Assembly (NCBI GenBank): GCA_017557425.1
Contig: JAFYYU010000007.1
Location: 139,450-203,449 of the forward strand
Direction of reading: 5' to 3'
Length of the DNA: 64,000 bases
Source of the DNA: Muribaculaceae bacterium
Lineage (GTDB): Bacteria > Bacteroidota > Bacteroidia > Bacteroidales > Muribaculaceae
In this document: positions 11,432 through 34,344 of the stretch, piece by piece
Layout of the letters: the number at the start of each line of letters is the position of its first letter
Position numbering within the stretch: the first letter of the stretch is position 1
The notes under the pieces: model-generated
The model's database searches: none
What the model saw: the letters and a program-made list of their open reading frames with translations, nothing else
Told to the model about the DNA's origin: nothing
Translations under genes and position numbers: made by a program

Positions 11432-12808
11432 ATGGAATTACCATTTGCCGAATCTTGGAAAATCAAAATGATCGAGCCGCTGCGCAAGAGCACTCGTGCT
11501 GAGCGCGAACAGTGGCTCAAGGAAGCCCATAACAACGTCTTCATGCTCAAGGCCGAGCAGGTTTACATCGACTGCCTGACCGACTCCGGTACTGGTGCGA
11601 TGAGCGACCGCCAGTGGTCTGAGATGATGCTGGGTGACGAGAGCTATGCCGGCGCCACTTCATTTTATAAGTTCCAGAGCGTGGTTCAACGCATCTTCGG
11701 TTTCAACTATGTAATCCCCACCCATCAGGGCCGTGCTGCCGAGAACGTACTGTTCTCCTATCTGGTAAAGCAAGGTAACGTCGTCCCCGGCAACGCCCAC
11801 TTTGATACCACCAAGGGCCACATCGAGAGCCGCCATGCTTCGGCTATCGACGTCACCATCGACGAGGCCCGTGACACCCAGCTCGAAATTCCCTTCAAGG
11901 GCAACGTGTCGCTGGAGAAGCTGGAGAAGGTGCTCAGCGAGAACAAGGGCAACGTGCCCTTCATGGTACTGACCGTGACCAATAACACCGTGGGCGGCCA
12001 GCCCGTGTCGATGCAGAACATCAAGGACACCTGCGAACTGTGCCACAAGTATGACGTGCCCGTGGTGATGGACAGCGCCCGCTTTGCCGAGAACGCTTAC
12101 TTCATCAAGACCCGCGAGGAGGGCTATGCCGACAAGACCATCAAGGAGATTGCCCGCGAGATGTACTCCTATGTTGACGCCATGACGATGTCGGCCAAGA
12201 AGGACGGTCTGGTGAACATGGGCGGCTTCATCGCCACCAACCGCGAGGACTGGTACGAGGGCGCCAAGTTGTTCTGCATCCCCTTTGAGGGCTTCCTTAC
12301 CTATGGCGGTTTGAACGGTCGCGACCTGAACGCCCTGGCAGTTGGTCTTGACGAGAACACCGAGTTTGAGATGCTCGAGACCCGCATCCACCAGGTTCAG
12401 TATCTGGCCAGCAAGCTCGACGAGTATGGCATCCCCTATCAGCGTCCCGTGGGCGGTCACGCCCTGTTCATCGATGCCGACAAGGTGCTGTGCAACATCC
12501 CCAAGGAAGAGTTCCCCGCCCAGACGCTCACCTGCGAGCTCTATCTCGAGGCCGGCATCCGTGGTTGCGAGATCGGCTACATCCTGGCCGACCGTGACCC
12601 CGTGACCCGCGAGAACCGCTTTGGCGGCATGGACCTGCTGCGTCTGTGCATCCCTCGCCGCGTCTATACCGACAACCACATGAACGTGATTGCCGCCGCA
12701 TTGAAAAACGTCTATGACCGTCGCAACGAGATCACGCGCGGTGTTGCCATCGAGTGGGAAGCCCCGCTGATGCGCCACTTCACCGTGAAACTCCAGCGAC
12801 TGGGATAA
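11432..12808 (+). CDS. tnaA: Tryptophanase (tryptophan indole-lyase)
   Basis: This PLP enzyme splits L-tryptophan into indole, pyruvate and ammonia. The 458-residue protein has the beta-eliminating lyase fold, and the PLP lysine is in SAKKDG (residues 254-259, probably the second lysine). Tyrosine phenol-lyase is a close relative, but two specificity positions favour tryptophan. The HFDTTKGH segment has aspartate (residue 125) where tyrosine phenol-lyase has threonine, and the C-terminal MRHFTVKL has histidine where the latter has phenylalanine. The N-terminus MELPFAESWKIKM is the form seen in Bacteroides homologues. It is monocistronic. No TnaC-like leader peptide and no tryptophan permease are visible nearby. 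Confidence 0.95.
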   Translation: MELPFAESWKIKMIEPLRKSTRAEREQWLKEAHNNVFMLKAEQVYIDCLTDSGTGAMSDRQWSEMMLGDESYAGATSFYKFQSVVQRIFGFNYVIPTHQGRAAENVLFSYLVKQGNVVPGNAHFDTTKGHIESRHASAIDVTIDEARDTQLEIPFKGNVSLEKLEKVLSENKGNVPFMVLTVTNNTVGGQPVSMQNIKDTCELCHKYDVPVVMDSARFAENAYFIKTREEGYADKTIKEIAREMYSYVDAMTMSAKKDGLVNMGGFIATNREDWYEGAKLFCIPFEGFLTYGGLNGRDLNALAVGLDENTEFEMLETRIHQVQYLASKLDEYGIPYQRPVGGHALFIDADKVLCNIPKEEFPAQTLTCELYLEAGIRGCEIGYILADRDPVTRENRFGGMDLLRLCIPRRVYTDNHMNVIAAALKNVYDRRNEITRGVAIEWEAPLMRHFTVKLQRLG

Positions 12809-16500: not shown

Positions 16501-17310
16501 TTAGGATTCGGCTTTGAAGTCGCTCAACTCAGGGCTGTAGTGATCGTAGTTCCAGGTCATGGTGACGGCGGCGCTGATGGTGGGCATGTCTTCATAGTGC
16601 AGCACCTTGCCGACCACAAAGTTCACACCAGGAGTGACATAAACCCTAATCTCGTTCGAGATGTCGTAGGTGATGATATCACCGATGTAGATGGCGTCGT
16701 CCATAAAGCCGCCCATATCCTCGATCGTGTTGGTCACTTTAACGAGTTCTTTACCCTCGGCATAGAAGGTGATTTCCTGGCCGTTGATGCTGTAAGTCAG
16801 CGCTTTGCACAGGGCCTGCTGCATCTCGTAGGGGTCAATCGAGGCCATAATACTGGCATAGCCAGCGCTATCGAATAACAGTTCGTAGAGACGTTCTACA
16901 TCCACGCCAGTGCCCTCCGTATCGCTGCCTACGATCCACAACTCTGTTGTGGAGGTGTCATATCGTGCCCGTGGCATACGGCCATGACGTATCTGGGGCA
17001 GGGCAGTCTTCACGTCGCCCTTGCCAACAACGATGCCATACCCCTCGCTAGAAACCTCGTCCGAGCACTTCAACAGGCTCCACACCTTTACGCTAACTCC
17101 CGTTAGATTCTCCTCCATCAGCATCTCATAGCGGTCGTCGATGTTGACATGTTTCATCAGATCTACTACCGCCTGGGGCGCTTCTCCGAGAGCAACAGCC
17201 TCTTCCATCGTTCCGTTCACGTGGCGCTGGGCCTTGCCCTTGCAGCCCGTCATCATGCCGCACAGTGCAACCACCGCGGCAACCTTTAACCACTGTTTCA
17301 TTTCTTTCAT
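16501..17310 (-). CDS. Orphan lipoprotein of about 270 residues
   Basis: Signal peptide and lipobox (VALCGMMTGC) put this protein on the outer or inner membrane as a lipoprotein; the mature form starts at CKGKAQRH. I recognise no domain. The soluble part mixes charged and beta-like segments and contains no obvious catalytic motif. The frame runs up to 17448, but ATG 17310 (or 17301) gives a normal signal peptide and sits downstream of a good promoter. A hairpin at 17434-17465 separates it from the upstream Cys/His-rich gene, so it has its own transcript. Confidence 0.8.
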   Translation of the reverse strand: MKEMKQWLKVAAVVALCGMMTGCKGKAQRHVNGTMEEAVALGEAPQAVVDLMKHVNIDDRYEMLMEENLTGVSVKVWSLLKCSDEVSSEGYGIVVGKGDVKTALPQIRHGRMPRARYDTSTTELWIVGSDTEGTGVDVERLYELLFDSAGYASIMASIDPYEMQQALCKALTYSINGQEITFYAEGKELVKVTNTIEDMGGFMDDAIYIGDIITYDISNEIRVYVTPGVNFVVGKVLHYEDMPTISAAVTMTWNYDHYSPELSDFKAES

Positions 17311-17342
17311 CGTCATCAGTTTATTGGTAGTAATTACACCGA

Positions 17343-17375
17343 CAAAGGTAGTATAAAACATCAAATCACCACAAA
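17343..17375 (-). promoter_or_regulatory. Promoter of the orphan lipoprotein gene
   Basis: Minus-strand TACCTTTG (17343-17350) and TTTG (17372-17375), spaced 21 bp, both perfect. Confidence 0.75.
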
Positions 17376-17433
17376 CAATATCCAAGCCTTTTGCAATTCC
17401 CTGTTCACGGGCGACAGTGCCATAGAGGACAAA

Positions 17434-17465
17434 AATCCCCGATTTCATCGAGGAAATCAGGGATT
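17434..17465 (-). terminator. Terminator of the Cys/His-rich repeat gene
   Basis: Stem AATCCC-GATTTC (17434-17446) pairs with GAAATC-GGGATT (17453-17465); on the minus strand it is followed by a run of T residues. Confidence 0.8.
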
Positions 17466-17524: not shown

Positions 17525-18082
17525 TCAGTTCTTTTTAGCCTTTTCCTTGCAGTCGGGGCACTGCTGGTCGGCGGGCTTGGTGCAGGGCTGACCGTCCTTG
17601 TGGTCCTTGCACTCCTCGTGCTTCTTCATCATGGCGGCCTTGTCGCACTGCTTGCCTTCGCCCTCCTTGCACTCGTGCTTCATACCTTCCTTGCACTCAT
17701 GCTTCTTGCCTTCTTTGCATTCATGCTTCATGCCCTCGGCTTTCTCGCACTTGTGGCCCTGGCCCTCCTTGCACTCATGCTTCATGCCTTCGGCCTTCTC
17801 GCACTGGTGGCCTTGGCCTTCTTTGCACTCGTGTTTCATGCCTTCGGCCTTCTCGCACTGGTGGCCCTGGCCTTCTTTGCACTCATGCTTCATGGCAGCC
17901 TTTTCCTTGCAGTCGGGGCACTGCTGGTCGGCGGGCTTGTCACAGGCCTTGCCGTCCTTGTGACCTTCGCATTTTTCATGCTTCGGGGCAACCTTTGCAT
18001 CGTTTACCTTGACGGGGGTTTGAGCCATCGATACGCTTGCGGCAAATGCCACCAGAGCAAGTGATAATAAGAATTTTTTCAT
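17525..18082 (-). CDS. Secreted Cys/His-rich tandem-repeat protein, likely metal-binding
   Basis: A 185-residue protein with a signal peptide (residues 1-20, cut near SMA-Q). The mature part has 18 cysteines and 13 histidines. Three 18-residue units MKHECKEGQGHQCEKAEG (64-81, 82-99, 100-117; the third has HKC for HQC) are followed by shorter eight-residue KHECKEG units (118-141). This core lies between two related flanks, KDGKACDKPADQQCPDCKEKA (about 42-62) and KDGQPCTKPADQQCPDCKEKA (162-182). Regular HEC and CPDC motifs suggest metal binding in the periplasm or outside, but no family is recognised and the metal is unknown. Lysine and glutamate fill the spaces, so the protein should be highly soluble. 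It has its own terminator. Confidence 0.88.
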   Translation of the reverse strand: MKKFLLSLALVAFAASVSMAQTPVKVNDAKVAPKHEKCEGHKDGKACDKPADQQCPDCKEKAAMKHECKEGQGHQCEKAEGMKHECKEGQGHQCEKAEGMKHECKEGQGHKCEKAEGMKHECKEGKKHECKEGMKHECKEGEGKQCDKAAMMKKHEECKDHKDGQPCTKPADQQCPDCKEKAKKN

Positions 18083-18128: not shown

Positions 18129-18136
18129 CAAAAGTA
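18129..18136 (-). promoter_or_regulatory. -7 element of the Cys/His-rich gene
   Basis: Minus-strand TACTTTTG about 46 bp before the start; no clear -33 element. A metal-responsive operator was looked for and not seen. Confidence 0.5.
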
Positions 18137-18272: not shown

Positions 18273-19094
18273 ATGTCAACCTATACTGTTACCGACCCCC
18301 GCAAGGTCACGACCAAGCGCATCGCCGACATGCGTACTGCCGGTGAGAAAATCGCGATGATTACCGCCTATGACTATACGATGGCTACCCTCGTGGACCA
18401 GGCCGGTATCGACATCATCCTGGTGGGCGACAGCGCAAGCAACGTCATGCAGGGCAACGCCACCACCATTCCTATCACTATCGACGACATGATCGTGTAT
18501 GGCCGCACCGTGGTACGTGCCGTCAAGCGTGCGATGGTCATCGTGGACATGCCCTTCGGCACCTATCAGGGCGATCCCATCGAGGCGCAGCGCAATGCCG
18601 TGCGCATCATGCAGGAAACCGGCGCCGACGGCGTGAAACTGGAGGGCGGCCGCGAGATGCGGTCCGCCATCGAGATGATTCTGCGGGCCGGCATCCCTGT
18701 AATGGGGCACCTGGGCTTGACACCGCAGAGCATCAACAAGTTCGGCACCTATGCCACCCGCGCCGAGGACGAAGCCGAGGCCACACGCCTGCTGGCAGAC
18801 GCCAAGGTACTGGCCGAGATCGGCTGCTTCGGCATCGTGCTGGAGAAGATTCCCGCCACGCTGGCCGCCAAGGTCACCCAGAGCATCAACGTGCCCACCA
18901 TCGGCATCGGGGGCGGCGGCGCATGCAGCGGCCAGGTGCTCGTGCTGCACGACATGCTGGGCCTGAACCGCGAGTTTAAGCCCAAATTCCTGCGTGTCTA
19001 TAACAACCTGGGCGAACAGATCATTGACAGTGTGGGCAACTACATTTCCGACGTAAAAAGCGGCGACTTCCCCAACGCTAATGAACAGTACTAA
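18273..19094 (+). CDS. panB: 3-methyl-2-oxobutanoate hydroxymethyltransferase
   Basis: PanB transfers a hydroxymethyl group from 5,10-methylenetetrahydrofolate to 3-methyl-2-oxobutanoate, the first committed step to pantothenate and coenzyme A. The 273-residue protein is full length with the family blocks ITAYDYTMATLVDQAGIDIILVGDSASNV, MQETGADGVKLEGG, GHLGLTPQS and the catalytic-region IGIGGGGACSGQVLVLHDMLG. The longer frame from 18198 would start inside the promoter, so ATG 18273 is used. The next gene starts 14 bases before the panB stop, an unusual coupling with a regulatory protein. Other pan genes are not in the window. Confidence 0.96.
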   Translation: MSTYTVTDPRKVTTKRIADMRTAGEKIAMITAYDYTMATLVDQAGIDIILVGDSASNVMQGNATTIPITIDDMIVYGRTVVRAVKRAMVIVDMPFGTYQGDPIEAQRNAVRIMQETGADGVKLEGGREMRSAIEMILRAGIPVMGHLGLTPQSINKFGTYATRAEDEAEATRLLADAKVLAEIGCFGIVLEKIPATLAAKVTQSINVPTIGIGGGGACSGQVLVLHDMLGLNREFKPKFLRVYNNLGEQIIDSVGNYISDVKSGDFPNANEQY

Positions 19095-20845: not shown

Positions 20846-23839
20846 TCACTCTGCCAGAATATGTCCCCAAACGTCATAGGTGACCCCGTTGCGGATAATC
20901 AGCACTTGTCCGTCACGCAACACCTTCTGCACACGAGGCATCTCCTCGTTTTGGCGAACATCAATCACAGCTGTTGGAAGTGTCTCGCCACGCAGTTTGG
21001 CAACACAGGTCCAAATCTCATCGGCATCCAGGTATCCCCCTTCGGTGAAGTGGGCGGCTACCGCGCTCTGCAACGTGGGCAGTGGGGTGCCTACCTCGGG
21101 ATAGGTGTAAAGCGCCTTGCCGCCGCTGTAGGCCGTGTGGGATGCAATAGCCTCTTCAAGGGTAGTTTCGGTATAAACCGTAGGCTCTGCATCGGGGCCT
21201 GAGGGCAGGATCAGCGGGTCAAAGCCGGTCAGCAGGTACAGGGCATGGCGCAACTGGTTGGAGTGGCGATACTCTGAAATCTGCAGGTCACTCGTGCGGT
21301 TATAGTCATTGGCGATGTCGTCCCAAGTAGCTCCGCACATAGCGGCCAAGACACCCGAGAACACACCCGTGCGGTCGGCTCCCAAGTGGCAATGGATCTG
21401 GAAGGGAACGGGGTGGTCTTCATCATTGATGAAGCGTACGATTTCCTGAATCCACTCGGCAAAGCGGCTCTGGTCGGTGTAGTACAGGGCGTGGTCATAG
21501 GACGGGGTGTGGCCGTTCTGCCTGCCCACGTAGAGAACCCTGTTGTTATTGATGATTTCGCGATAGTAATCGGGAATGGTGACCGTGTAGGTAGTTCCTG
21601 AAACCGTGTAGGTTGCGTGGCCGTCTTCGGCCTCAAGGTTACCTGACAAGGCGATGTCGCAGTTGATGCCTGCCTCGGTCGCTAATGCGGCCACCCACTC
21701 CATGCGTGCATGCTCGGTGTCGTAACTTGCACGGGACGGATGATAGGGGTGATACGAGCGGTACAGGTGCTCGGTACCGGGAACGCGGCGGAAGTTGGAG
21801 ATGCGTTCTTGCTCCATCCTGTCGGTCAGATCAAAGTCAGCCAGAGGACGGATGTAGAGGGCCGTCTCCTTGCGCAGGAGCAGATCGTCAACATCGTCAT
21901 CGTTGAAGGCTACGATCTGTTTCCAGCCGTTGGAGCAGAAGGTCATGTACTCCTCACAGCCCTCGGCCAGCGTGGGCCATGACTGGGTGACATAAGAGTT
22001 GCCGTTGGTGTGATATACATTAAACAGGTACTCTGGCTGGCCACCGTTGCCGGTGCGATCAATGTCAGCATAGGGCAGCGTCAGGTAGAAACAGCCATCG
22101 GTGCTGAAGCCCGACATCTGGTAATCGGGATCCGTCTTGCCCCAATTAGAGATAGAGCCATAGACATAAAGTTTCTGCACATTCAGCGGCGAGATGACGA
22201 AACGGGTGCGGGCCGTCGAGAAGATGAAGGTGATCTGCTTCAAGTTGTCGTTCAGACGGTAGCAGTTGTTCTTTTCGGTAGTGGTGAACTTTTCGCCATA
22301 TTCGCCCTCAAGATGGGTGATGGTGAGCGGGTTGCCATCCCTGTTATTGTTGACAGTAAGCATCCAGCCGTCGTTCACACCCGACTGAAGACCACCCGTA
22401 TAAACAGCGGTATAATGGTTTGCCGTACTGAGGTTAGCAGGCCCCCAGTCACCACTCGAGAAGTGGCTGTTACCCACAACGGCCATATAGGTGATATCCT
22501 CCTTGGTGTAAGGCATCGGACAGGTGAGTCGTCCCAATGTGTCGGGGAGGAAATGGATGCACTGGGATGCGGTTTCATTACCCACTACCAAGTAGTAATT
22601 CTCGTCATCCCATGCCACTTGTTCAAGGTCAAGATAAGCACGGCCACCGACCAGCGAGAACAGTTTCGTCGGGTCAGGCTCGATGATGACGCTGTCCTCG
22701 GGTGCAGCCTTGGTTAAGCGGATGGAGATTGCCTTGCTGACAGGATCGAAGACGAACTCTGCCGAGTCTCCGACAACGGGATTGTCAATCAAAGTGATGT
22801 TGGCCAAAGGAACCCATACCGAGTTGATGCCCAGCGCATTGTCGGCATAGTTACATCCGGTGCCTCCATAAACATCTTCGCGGATATATAAGGTGGAGTC
22901 GGCATTGGGATAGAGCTCGCGCCACTCCCATGAGGCATCCAGGCCGTCGCCCCAGCCATGCTTAAAGAACCAGCGCTGTACGGGGTCTTCCTCGGCTTCC
23001 TTATACATTCTTATAGTGATGGAACCCACAGCGGGGTCAAAAATGAATTCTGCAGAGTCTCCGACAACGGGGTCGCCAATCAAGGTAACGTCAGAGAGGG
23101 GAACCCATGAGGAACCGCTGCCCTGGGCATTGTCGGCATAGTTGCAGCCGTTGCCGCCGAACACGTCCTTGCGGGAATAGAGTGATGCATCCTCGTTGGG
23201 GAACACTTCACGCCATTCCCAAGAGCCACCGCCCCACGGGTGCTTGAGGAACCACTGACGATCGGGTTGCGTGCCGCCTTGATAATCGGGATTAGGTTTC
23301 AAGCGGATAGCATAAGTGTACCATGAGCCGGAAGATACCATGGCGATATCGGTGGCAGCGGAGCCGTTATAGATGACATAGCCATAGGAGGGATCTGAGC
23401 CGGTAGCCAATTCGACAGTACCCTGCGCGATACCATTGTAGCCGCCGCTCTTGAAAGTCAACGTACGGGCTGAAGATGAGGAGGTGGAATTACCCCACAC
23501 TTCAATAGTGTCTCCAGGGTTGGCGGTAAAGTACAGCCAGCGGTAGTCTGAGCTGGACTTGCCGTTGATTTTCAGGCGCTGAGTGAAAGTGAGCGTCTCG
23601 TTGCCGTCTTCCGATGTCCACGAACGTTCTGAACAGGACTGGAAGATGGGCACACGGTCGATCGACGAGCCGTCGGTGACAAGTGTGATACCGTTGATTG
23701 TCGTTGTTTGCCACAACGTGTCATTGGGGAACGCCTCGGTGTCACTGAAATTCCAGAAAGTTACATCCTGGGCTGACATCATCAGGGGCAACGCCAGCAC
23801 AAAAGCCAGCAACCCTCGCAGTAATGTTAGATTTTTCAT
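20846..23839 (-). CDS. Secreted CX5R (tyrosine-type) phosphatase with duplicated N-terminal module
   Basis: A 997-residue exported protein: signal peptide (1-23, cut near MSA-Q), a beta-rich N-terminal domain (about 25-185), two copies of an 85-90-residue module (194-282 and 289-379), a middle region of beta-sandwich type (about 390-650), then a phosphatase domain (about 660-880) with the loop HCHLGADRTG at 816-825. That is the HCX5R signature of PF13350-type tyrosine/dual-specificity phosphatases, with Cys817 and Arg823. Each module has a W(F)FLKH-WG start, SWEWRE, a GCNYADNA motif, and a VVGDSAEF(I/V)FDP end. The C-terminus VLRDGQVLIIRNGVTYDVWGHIL is a Bacteroidales sorting-type tail. Substrate is unknown; phosphoinositide, phosphoprotein or inositol phosphate are possible. 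Confidence 0.9.
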   Translation of the reverse strand: MKNLTLLRGLLAFVLALPLMMSAQDVTFWNFSDTEAFPNDTLWQTTTINGITLVTDGSSIDRVPIFQSCSERSWTSEDGNETLTFTQRLKINGKSSSDYRWLYFTANPGDTIEVWGNSTSSSSARTLTFKSGGYNGIAQGTVELATGSDPSYGYVIYNGSAATDIAMVSSGSWYTYAIRLKPNPDYQGGTQPDRQWFLKHPWGGGSWEWREVFPNEDASLYSRKDVFGGNGCNYADNAQGSGSSWVPLSDVTLIGDPVVGDSAEFIFDPAVGSITIRMYKEAEEDPVQRWFFKHGWGDGLDASWEWRELYPNADSTLYIREDVYGGTGCNYADNALGINSVWVPLANITLIDNPVVGDSAEFVFDPVSKAISIRLTKAAPEDSVIIEPDPTKLFSLVGGRAYLDLEQVAWDDENYYLVVGNETASQCIHFLPDTLGRLTCPMPYTKEDITYMAVVGNSHFSSGDWGPANLSTANHYTAVYTGGLQSGVNDGWMLTVNNNRDGNPLTITHLEGEYGEKFTTTEKNNCYRLNDNLKQITFIFSTARTRFVISPLNVQKLYVYGSISNWGKTDPDYQMSGFSTDGCFYLTLPYADIDRTGNGGQPEYLFNVYHTNGNSYVTQSWPTLAEGCEEYMTFCSNGWKQIVAFNDDDVDDLLLRKETALYIRPLADFDLTDRMEQERISNFRRVPGTEHLYRSYHPYHPSRASYDTEHARMEWVAALATEAGINCDIALSGNLEAEDGHATYTVSGTTYTVTIPDYYREIINNNRVLYVGRQNGHTPSYDHALYYTDQSRFAEWIQEIVRFINDEDHPVPFQIHCHLGADRTGVFSGVLAAMCGATWDDIANDYNRTSDLQISEYRHSNQLRHALYLLTGFDPLILPSGPDAEPTVYTETTLEEAIASHTAYSGGKALYTYPEVGTPLPTLQSAVAAHFTEGGYLDADEIWTCVAKLRGETLPTAVIDVRQNEEMPRVQKVLRDGQVLIIRNGVTYDVWGHILAE

Positions 23840-31778: not shown

Positions 31779-31813
31779 CCTAAAACCTAAAGCCTAAAAC
31801 CTAAAACCTAAAG
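31779..31813. repeat. Heptanucleotide tandem repeat (CCTAAAA/CCTAAAG)5
   Basis: Five contiguous seven-base units on the plus strand, ending two bases before the ispG stop codon (31815-31817) and filling most of the ispG-DUF4369 gap. Confidence 0.9.
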
Positions 31814-31814
31814 C

Positions 31815-33632
31815 CTACTCCCGCCAGTCGCCGTTTTCCTTGATCAGAGCAACAAGGCGGTCAATGGCGTCATCCTCGGGGATATTCATCTCGACGCACT
31901 GTTTTCCCTTGTACAGGCTGATGCGTCCTGCCGCTGCACCCACGTATCCATAGTCGGCATCAGCCATCTCGCCGGGACCGTTGACGATACAGCCCATCAC
32001 GCCGATTTTGAGGTGGGTAAGGTGGGCAGTCGCCTGTTGCACGCGTTGCACGGTCGTCTGCAGGTCAAACATGGTCCTGCCGCATCCCGGGCACGAGATA
32101 AACTCCGTCTTGCTGATGCGCAACCGTGCCGCCTGCAAGATGGCAAAGGCATAGCGCACCACCTCAACGCTGCTGTGGATATTGGGCGCTTCAAGCCACA
32201 CGCCGTCAGCCCGGCCGTTGAGCAACACCGCTCCCATGTCGGCTCCCGCCTTGACCTGCAGCCATTCGTTCGAGCTGTCTGTATAGGTGTTGCGCAGGAT
32301 TACGGGGCAGTAGATGCCGGCCCTATCCAAAGCATGGACGAGTGCTTGCTGTTCACCTGGGATATCTTTTCCCACAGGGGTGATGACCAATACCGTGTCG
32401 GTGCGGCCGCGCAGGAATTCAAGCCGCTGAACCGGCGTGGTGGCAGGCAGTTGCAGGAACCGCATGGCTGCAGCGGGACAGCGGTCCCACTCGCCCAAGG
32501 TGAGCAACGGATACGCATTGCGTTCACCGTGCCAGCAGTCTAGAGGAACCAGGAACTGGTGCATGCCGTCAATGAGTCCATTGGCGCTATAATAGAAATC
32601 GGGCAATATGGCTGAGTCATTCAGTTCATCGGGGCGATAGCTGGCGATGACGATGGGCTGCCGGGTGCCACCAATACGGTCATTGACCGCAACGGTCTCA
32701 CGCCTCATGGGGCACAAGGTGTCATAACCCTCGGCATATTCCCCTACGATGTCGGGCTGCCCTTCACGCTGCATGATATAGTCCACCAGTTTGCGTGCCA
32801 CAGGTACCTCGAGTTCGGGTTCCTCGCTGAGTGACACGCGGATGGTGTCACCCAGGCCCTGGGCCATAAGTGCACCGATGCCCACGGCGCTCTTGACGCG
32901 TCCGTCCTCGCCAAAACCAGCCTCGGTCACGCCTAGATGAAGCGGGAAGTGCATGTCCTCACGGTCCATGGCATCTACGAGACGGCGTACGGCCTCGACC
33001 ATGACCACGACATTGGATGCCTTCATCGAAATCACCACATCCATGAAGTTTTCCTCGACAAACACGCGCAGGAACTCCATCACGCTCTCGACCATGCCCG
33101 CCGCCGTGTTACCATAGCGGCTCATGATGCGGTCACTCAACGAGCCGTGGTTCACGCCCAGGCGCACAGCCGTGTGATGCTCTCGGCACACCGCGATAAA
33201 CGGCAACAGCGCCTCACGCACGCGCTTGAGCTCGGCATCATACTCCTCCTGGGTGTATTCCAGTTGCTTGAATGTGCGTGCAGGATCCACAAAGTTTCCC
33301 GGGTTGATGCGCACACCCTCACACACCTTGGCAGCAGCAAGAGCAGCTTGGGGATTGAAGTGGATATCAGCGATAAGGGGAATGTCACAGCCCTGGGCCC
33401 GCAGCAATTGCGAGATTTCTCCAATGCTGTGTGCCTGCTTTACGCCTTGAGCAGTCAGCCGCACATAGTCGGCACCGGCATAGGCGATGCGTTGGCATTG
33501 GGCCGCACTGGCCTGTATGTCGTCGGTGGCGGTGTTGGTCATTGACTGGACGCGCACGGGCCACTCGCCACCCATGGCGATTCCGCCCACGTTGACGTTC
33601 ACGGTCGAACGTCGTTTATAGTTGAAGAGCAT
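31815..33632 (-). CDS. ispG: 4-hydroxy-3-methylbut-2-enyl-diphosphate synthase
   Basis: IspG converts methylerythritol cyclodiphosphate to HMBPP in the MEP pathway of isoprenoid synthesis, using a 4Fe-4S cluster. The 605-residue length is that of the large Bacteroidetes/Chlamydiae/plant type, with an inserted central domain (about 300-500) between the TIM barrel and the cluster domain. The barrel shows VNVGGIAMGGEWPVRVQSMTN and ADIHFNP. The three cluster cysteines are in CPGCGRTMFDL (two) and GCIVNGPGE (one). It is co-directional with the upstream PAP2 gene (27 bp) and rpoN. Confidence 0.97.
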   Translation of the reverse strand: MLFNYKRRSTVNVNVGGIAMGGEWPVRVQSMTNTATDDIQASAAQCQRIAYAGADYVRLTAQGVKQAHSIGEISQLLRAQGCDIPLIADIHFNPQAALAAAKVCEGVRINPGNFVDPARTFKQLEYTQEEYDAELKRVREALLPFIAVCREHHTAVRLGVNHGSLSDRIMSRYGNTAAGMVESVMEFLRVFVEENFMDVVISMKASNVVVMVEAVRRLVDAMDREDMHFPLHLGVTEAGFGEDGRVKSAVGIGALMAQGLGDTIRVSLSEEPELEVPVARKLVDYIMQREGQPDIVGEYAEGYDTLCPMRRETVAVNDRIGGTRQPIVIASYRPDELNDSAILPDFYYSANGLIDGMHQFLVPLDCWHGERNAYPLLTLGEWDRCPAAAMRFLQLPATTPVQRLEFLRGRTDTVLVITPVGKDIPGEQQALVHALDRAGIYCPVILRNTYTDSSNEWLQVKAGADMGAVLLNGRADGVWLEAPNIHSSVEVVRYAFAILQAARLRISKTEFISCPGCGRTMFDLQTTVQRVQQATAHLTHLKIGVMGCIVNGPGEMADADYGYVGAAAGRISLYKGKQCVEMNIPEDDAIDRLVALIKENGDWRE

Positions 33633-34301: not shown

Positions 34302-34313
34302 TTTGAGTTTTGA

Positions 34314-34344
34314 GTCTTTAGTCTTCAGTCCTTAGTCTTTAGTC
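34314..34344. repeat. Heptanucleotide tandem repeat (GTCTTTA)4
   Basis: GTCTTTA, GTCTTCA, GTCCTTA, GTCTTTA then GTC, contiguous, between the PAP2 gene start and the rpoN stop. On the minus strand the unit reads TAAAGAC, close to the CCTAAAG unit after ispG. Confidence 0.85.

Follow-up and report, generated by a model that had tools for sequence, protein, structure and literature searches.

What could a bacterium gain from exporting a small protein made mostly of tandem repeats rich in cysteine and histidine? The question is raised by one gene in a stretch of 64,000 nucleotides from a Muribaculaceae bacterium (assembly GCA_017557425.1, contig JAFYYU010000007.1, positions 139,450 to 203,449 of the forward strand), called the window below. 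The gene encodes a 185-residue protein with 18 Cys and 13 His (exact count), for which an original prediction, made from the letters alone, had proposed metal storage or copper/zinc buffering in the periplasm. Our best reading, by analogy, is a function resembling that of metallothioneins and bufferins, with membership in neither group implied, and we lean slightly towards a putative exported thiol/His metal buffer.

An exported Cys/His repeat protein and its homologues

The open reading frame (ORF) is, as judged from the sequences compared, a true gene, because it is conserved over 33 distinct complete homologues, itself included. These were collected by a start-pattern rule, to which a wider rule added only a fragment at a contig end (34). 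The counts and layout given in the original prediction match the sequence: a signal peptide, then two flanks containing CPDC, which enclose three 18-residue units and shorter KHECKEG units (Table 1). A signal peptide is recognisable by eye in all 23 rows of the family alignment A2. The two flanks, here N-box and C-box, have KPADQQCPDCK in common in the window protein. Two of the 18-residue units are identical as protein and the third differs by a Q to K change; their DNA identities are 51/54, 49/54 and 46/54, and Tandem Repeats Finder describes the array as 3.5 copies of period 54 with 89% matches (score 290). The mature chain carries HxC nine times, against a mean of 1.43 in shuffled chains, and none of 10,000 shuffles reached nine. 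It has no aromatic residue, and I, L, V, F, W and Y together make up 3 of its 164 residues.

The homologues range from 139 to 304 residues, and their mature parts contain 15-27 Cys and 3-13 His, with the window protein at the His-rich end. This comparison of repeat number between relatives bears out the suggestion that the repeat DNA can expand or contract. Units are mostly 16-18 residues long with two Cys. The mean composition is 24.5% Lys, 11% Cys and 4.3% His, with at most two aromatic residues per mature chain and a net charge of +2 to +16. One of the 33 proteins (L002) is shortened by a TAG stop. A TAG stop lies in the C-box of L036 and L087, probably one genome (G020), where the protein ends before the last CPDC.

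Within the family it is Cys that, by the aligned repeats, stays constant, and His that varies. Repeat segments of KCDKAEG type have Cys at its expected place in 186/186, those of KHECKEG type in 137/139, and in the latter the His place is occupied by His in 137/149. The fixed His/Cys rhythm announced for this protein stands as far as its enrichment in HxC is concerned; across the family it is the Cys that recurs, and His numbers vary. Successive Cys are mostly 6-10 residues apart, and CxxC is found in the boxes, its count (64) being equal to the number of box motifs. Each Cys is mostly followed by K, D or E, never by G, and CxxCH haem motifs, as in multihaem cytochromes, are absent from the 33 proteins. 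The boxes also vary in a patterned way: among the 55 fitting the pattern, those that have lost the H of DHK (CKDHK) contain CC in 16/16 cases and those that keep it in 7/39 (Fisher 8e-9, rows related by descent). This exchange of CC for H looks like the replacement of one metal ligand by another.

Searches with the window protein or its alignment found nothing credible in Pfam, NCBIfam, PHROGs, PADLOC or PDB sequences, in agreement with the original statement that no known metallothionein or Hpn-type family matches by eye. DUF6520 was rejected as a homologue: it was reached below threshold by 1/23 members (E 0.0013), over residues 1-56, which are signal peptide and N-box only. In the open-access PMC literature, outside which most subscription papers lie, no description of this family was recognised by title or abstract, and no paper was found for the repeat motifs.

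All members of the family belong to a single clade within one genus of Bacteroidales and share one origin, as far as the sequences of the genomes searched indicate. A first set of 61 genomes (60 relatives and the own genome) gave 18 matches at E <= 1e-3. A GTDB scan gave 21 loci, all labelled as Prevotellaceae, Muribaculaceae or Bacteroidales assemblies; where an animal source is stated, it is goat, sheep or water buffalo. Alignment A2, of 23 rows, matched 46/101 genomes of the genus, of which 39/101 were kept as family members after removal of three unrelated ones (G278, G393, G789) and four with another architecture or locus (G401, G797, G799, G404). At family level there were matches in 39/397 genomes: 38 from this genus, G278, G393 and G404 included, and one that was weak and unrelated. 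At order level 5/393 genomes matched; apart from the own genome these gave weak hits, all four rejected as relatives. Matches in G278, G393, G789 and G218 concerned only the signal peptide or charged repeats and were likewise rejected. The weak order-level hits L076-L078 were not accepted, and L075, small, exported and K/C-rich, belongs to another family and has stops within the match.

The gene lies beside panB in 21/21 long loci and in all 33/33 loci used for a tree. In this panB tree, which has 66 rows, a branch supported at 99/99 separates the rows with the gene from all others. Twenty genomes were selected for having no listed match, or only the divergent one (G404); 18 of them have a panB, with no Cys-repeat gene in the upstream sequence of at most 1.5 kb, the flanks being short in L096 and L104. 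We take panB as a positional marker for the repeat gene, with no functional link implied.

Cys repeats on other exported proteins of the genus

Related repeats occur in other settings, in genomes of the genus without the gene. In G799 an exported thioredoxin (L111; Pfam E 1.2e-19) is joined to a box, CCKDHNKTECTKPESQQCADCKKH, which matches the box of the window family with a pairwise E of 2e-05. The closest relatives of this thioredoxin, in G338 and G016, carry long Cys repeats ahead of the domain (L113, L114; Pfam E 2.6e-19 and 4.5e-19), and WCGPC is intact in all three proteins. Ten of 20 thioredoxin loci were inspected: three carry Cys repeats and seven do not. As a layout, a Cys box or a long Cys-Lys region precedes the exported WCGPC domain in L111/L112, L113 and L114. 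In G404 a freestanding EGHKCEK repeat protein (L079) lies at a different locus and has a similar C-terminal end.

A second setting is the C-terminus of Spy-like proteins. In G401 and G797, KHECKEG repeats follow a Spy-like domain, which matches Spy of the PDB weakly (E 0.017). The Spy-like protein L108 was matched in 61/101 genomes of the genus at E <= 1e-4; five of them (G036, G031, G375, G798 and G035) owed their match to the main gene's Cys repeat alone and were left out. The Spy-like protein was read in the other 56 genomes, 22 with the gene and 34 without, L157, L159 and L165 having been replaced by longer stretches. All 22 gene-bearing genomes have a short tail with 2-5 Cys. In the 34 others the tail is expanded in eight (8-19 Cys; in two of these, G792 and G797, the sequence runs to the contig end), lacks Cys in 16 and has 1-5 Cys in 10. 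Units of the expanded tails are of KHEGNCD, KAKAGHECD, KKGECAE and KHECKEG types. LTXXQ exceeded the Pfam cut-off in three of five Spy-like proteins tested (L202, L203, L206), L202 being the separate Spy-like protein of the own genome (E 4.7e-6); L108 and L109 were below the cut-off for both LTXXQ and Metal_resist. With the own Spy-like protein as query, 41/295 order genomes outside the genus, own included, gave a match. Among 29 such loci 21 were resolved, with a Cys tail in one (L231, 4 Cys) and a single Cys in one; L255 was not Spy-like.

Long C-terminal Cys/His repeats whose sequence differs by species are seen on the Spy/LTXXQ-like proteins L196/L203, L150, L188, L200, L142, L143, L158 and L176. 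Three further Spy-like proteins, L201 (G015), L184 (G393) and L197 (G793), have His/Asp tail repeats of GPRHDGK and RPDGK type without Cys.

The expanded Cys-repeat designs probably have several origins, not formally counted, because they fall on separate branches of the panB tree: G013/G154/G380, G016/G338, G404 and G401/G797. The clade of G013, G154 and G380 also includes the unexpanded G005 and G800; the panB of G401/G797 is very divergent, and G008, G417 and G792 yielded none. For the surroundings of the Spy-like and thioredoxin fusions, ORF starts were viewed by eye in 5 of 10 stretches.

Proposed metal buffering and competing explanations

How could such a protein act? In the mechanism that we slightly favour, Sec would export it, and the mature chain, rich in Lys and Glu and nearly devoid of hydrophobic residues, would serve as a scaffold for 18 thiols, of which nine belong to HxC pairs. 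With neither DsbB nor VKOR in the periplasm, these thiols would remain reduced, and together with His they would bind ions of soft metals, be it Cu(I), Zn(II) or a toxic metal. The flexible chain would fold around the bound ions as metallothioneins do, and expansion or contraction of the repeats would alter the number of units and so tune capacity. The role would be storage or detoxification, presumably at a periplasmic rather than an extracellular site.

The redox setting is compatible with this mechanism. DsbB and VKOR were found in 0/41 genomes of the genus, and the same searches were positive in 6 and 3 of 14 control genomes, which makes free thiols plausible in an exported protein. The Cys count is odd in 18/33 homologues. 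Odd counts together with the failure to find DsbB and VKOR make obligatory disulfides unlikely, other oxidation routes being possible. As a background, obtained with a crude signal-peptide rule on a small sample, 36 type I exported Cys proteins of the fetched loci comprise 16 with even and 20 with odd counts, and 10 lipoproteins comprise six even and four odd.

The exchange of CC and HxC in the boxes, the Cys/His tails of Spy-like proteins and the absence of DsbB and VKOR from the genomes searched favour metal buffering indirectly, and it is on these that the periplasmic buffering of the original prediction can lean; no metal gene came to its help among the scanned neighbours. Several points weigh against it. 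Of the window neighbours scanned (large ORFs from 12.9 to 25.4 kb; the gene at 11432-12808 is outside the scan), none was recognisable as a metal transporter or metal sensor, neighbours in other genomes being compared with window ORFs only and not family-scanned, and no operator was recognisable in the promoter region in the alignment of 33. Lys varies hardly more than Cys (137/139 and 186/190 at two positions), and repeat homogenisation conserves everything, so that the constancy of Cys is weak evidence of selection. CxC occurs in none of the 33 proteins. Expanded Spy-like tails are found in 0/22 genomes with the gene and 8/34 without (Fisher P 0.017), a contrast that is confounded because the gene-bearing genomes are one clade and that is not independent evidence of replacement. 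Finally, the thioredoxin fusions suit a redox role equally well.

That redox role is the alternative that survives best, and we hold it to be unlikely rather than remote. The protein would be a metal-free thiol-redox module, an exported Cys pool reduced by thioredoxin-like proteins and buffering oxidants, polysulfides or traces of O2. It fits the exported WCGPC thioredoxins that carry a box (L111) or long Cys repeats (L113, L114), and also the DsbB/VKOR result. However, a thiol pool needs neither His at position -2 of many Cys nor the CC/H exchange in the boxes, the Spy/LTXXQ fusions point another way, and a fused thioredoxin may equally keep metal-binding thiols reduced.

Comparison with known exported and metal-linked proteins shows differences from each of them. 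Metallothionein cluster motifs are usually CxC or CxxC, and bacterial metallothioneins are cytosolic, without a signal peptide. The window family shares with SmtA and MymT a Cys-rich, aromatic-poor composition that includes His, and is probably unfolded without metal; it differs in being exported, in its mostly 6-10 residue Cys spacing and in having no CxC. No metallothionein profile was reached in Pfam up to E 1 or in NCBIfam up to E 10 (23 members). Csp1, also an exported Cys-rich protein, is described in an excerpt of the source as a copper store, Tat-exported and forming a Cys-lined four-helix bundle (PMC7558416), whereas the window protein has no twin-Arg signal, almost no hydrophobic residues and, by sequence, no Pfam match. 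On the sequence features tested, membership in the metallothioneins and in Csp1 fails. ZraP, which binds zinc, is counted within the LTXXQ group. Part of a published account presents Spy, CpxP and ZraP as periplasmic and metal-linked in enterobacteria (PMC3852070). The genus bears Cys/His tails on Spy-like proteins, but the domain of that group (LTXXQ, Metal_resist) was not found in the window protein or the 23 members.

The nearest published layout is that of the Buf_EGKCG/oxazolin precursor, with a Sec signal and 17-residue repeats containing two Cys motifs in the excerpt available (PMC12452194), one of the copper-binding peptides modified by MNIO in the oxazolin/captophorin context (excerpts of PMC12452194, PMC13097082, PMC12636315). 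The window family shares the Sec signal (by eye) and the repeated Cys motifs but has neither EGKCG (0 in 33; 0 in 34 by the wider rule) nor CPxCGxG (0 in 33), never places Cys before G, and is confined to one Bacteroidales genus among the genomes searched. It is improbable that the protein is itself such a metallophore precursor (bufferin, oxazolin or captophorin type), in which a cytoplasmic MNIO would modify Cys to heterocycles that bind copper, with export as the later step. Part of PMC12452194 describes some precursor genes that stand alone as true single-gene units, and L111 weakly matches the NCBIfam chryseobasin-precursor profile (E 0.014, 16 bits against a cut-off of 50). Against this stand the absence of both motifs, the lack of MNIO, DUF2063 and DoxX among the large window ORFs scanned, and the bufABC order, strictly conserved in bufferin clusters as excerpted (PMC12452194). 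In relatives, a motif regular expression run over 1.09 Mb of loci, without positive control, found no MNIO/DUF2063 neighbour. MNIO enzymes moreover consume molecular oxygen, in the excerpted text (PMC13097082), which makes this chemistry unlikely in a strict rumen anaerobe, a lifestyle assumed from the sources of relatives.

A metal buffer of unmodified thiols may, by analogy, work in a captophorin-like manner, captophorin membership not being implied. We raise, tentatively, the wider possibility of an O2-independent, unmodified-thiol counterpart of bufferins and captophorins, for which one anaerobic genus would have evolved sponges repeatedly, as free proteins, Spy tails and thioredoxin heads, each able to grow by tandem duplication and possibly taking the place of one another. 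If it binds metal, the window protein would be an exported Cys/His repeat buffer of a rumen Bacteroidales lineage, without a profile in the libraries searched, and would raise the question of how copper and zinc are buffered in the envelope of anaerobes presumably unable to run O2-dependent MNIO chemistry. The recurrence of repeats on free, Spy-like and thioredoxin proteins in one genus provides naturally occurring variants whose Cys number ranges from 8 to 27 and illustrates the origin of expandable low-complexity ligand arrays.

Asr is exported and acid-induced, with Lys-rich repeats and without Cys repeats. A structural or surface polycation, disordered, Lys-rich and either disulfide-crosslinked outside the cell or Asr-like, seems to us a poor candidate: charge, Lys content and weak sub-threshold Asr matches in 5/23 members (best E 0.0047) speak for it, but the window protein, likewise exported and Lys-rich, does not reach NCBIfam NF033636 (9.5 bits against a cut-off of 50), and the constancy of Cys would be unexplained unless the chains were crosslinked, with DsbB and VKOR not found.

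Surroundings of the gene

Table 1. The repeat gene, its parts and its surroundings (window positions)
Feature	Position	Strand	Remarks
Cys/His repeat protein, coding sequence	17525..18082	-	ATG start, 185 aa + stop
Signal peptide MKKFLLSLALVAFAASVSMAQ	residues 1-21, 18020..18082	-	SMA-Q cleavage region, by eye; kept in alignment A2
N-box KHEKCEGHKDGKACDKPADQQCPDCKEKAA	residues 34-63, 17894..17983	-	sequence
Three 18-residue units MKHECKEGQGH(Q/K)CEKAEG	residues 64-117, 17732..17893	-	Tandem Repeats Finder and sequence
Shorter KHECKEG-type units	residues 118-151, 17630..17731	-	Tandem Repeats Finder and sequence
C-box KHEECKDHKDGQPCTKPADQQCPDCKEKA	residues 154-182, 17537..17623	-	sequence
Intrinsic-terminator-like hairpin	17434..17465	-	directly 3' of gene; 13 pairs, then T-rich tail
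TACTTTTG, Bacteroidetes -7 box-like	18129..18136	-	similar sequence upstream of homologues (alignment of 33)
Conserved upstream element AAACCAAAAAAACCTTAAAA	18162..18181	-	alignment of 33 upstream regions
panB (ketopantoate hydroxymethyltransferase)	18273..19094	+	divergent neighbour; Pfam PF02548 E 1.4e-107
Probable lipoprotein adjoining gene	16504-17448	-	no Pfam match
Large exported protein with tyrosine-phosphatase-like domain	20849-23839	-	PF13350 E 2.4e-11

The repeat gene and the divergent panB are separated by 190 bases. In this interval TACTTTTG resembles TAnnTTTG, the consensus of the -7 box in Bacteroidetes; most homologues keep a box like TACTTTTG as well as a AAACCAAAAAAACCTTAAA element (alignment of 33). 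The upstream element was present in 7/7 panB-linked loci scanned, against 0/7 loci of Spy-like or thioredoxin genes. In some relatives (L004, L006, L008, L011, L013, L065, L069) the promoter region contains a repeated block, GATAAATnAGGC..ACATAAAAAATG... On the 3' side, the search for terminator-like hairpins gave two such sites against 1.5 expected by chance; a sequence resembling the hairpin also lies 3' of the L049 homologue.

No tRNA or Rfam match was obtained in the window. A mobile-element origin was considered and rejected: there was no plasmid or phage match, and the 15 pattern hits in viral contigs included no relative. In L049 and L085 a different large exported protein lies downstream of the homologue. 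A relative of the protein with the tyrosine-phosphatase-like domain is found at most 5 kb from the gene in 7/21 long loci (L032, L035, L036, L039, L041, L042, L049). Elsewhere in the window, short 7-base tandem arrays at 31779-31817 (CCTAAAA) and 34313-34344 (AGTCTTT) could vary in length.
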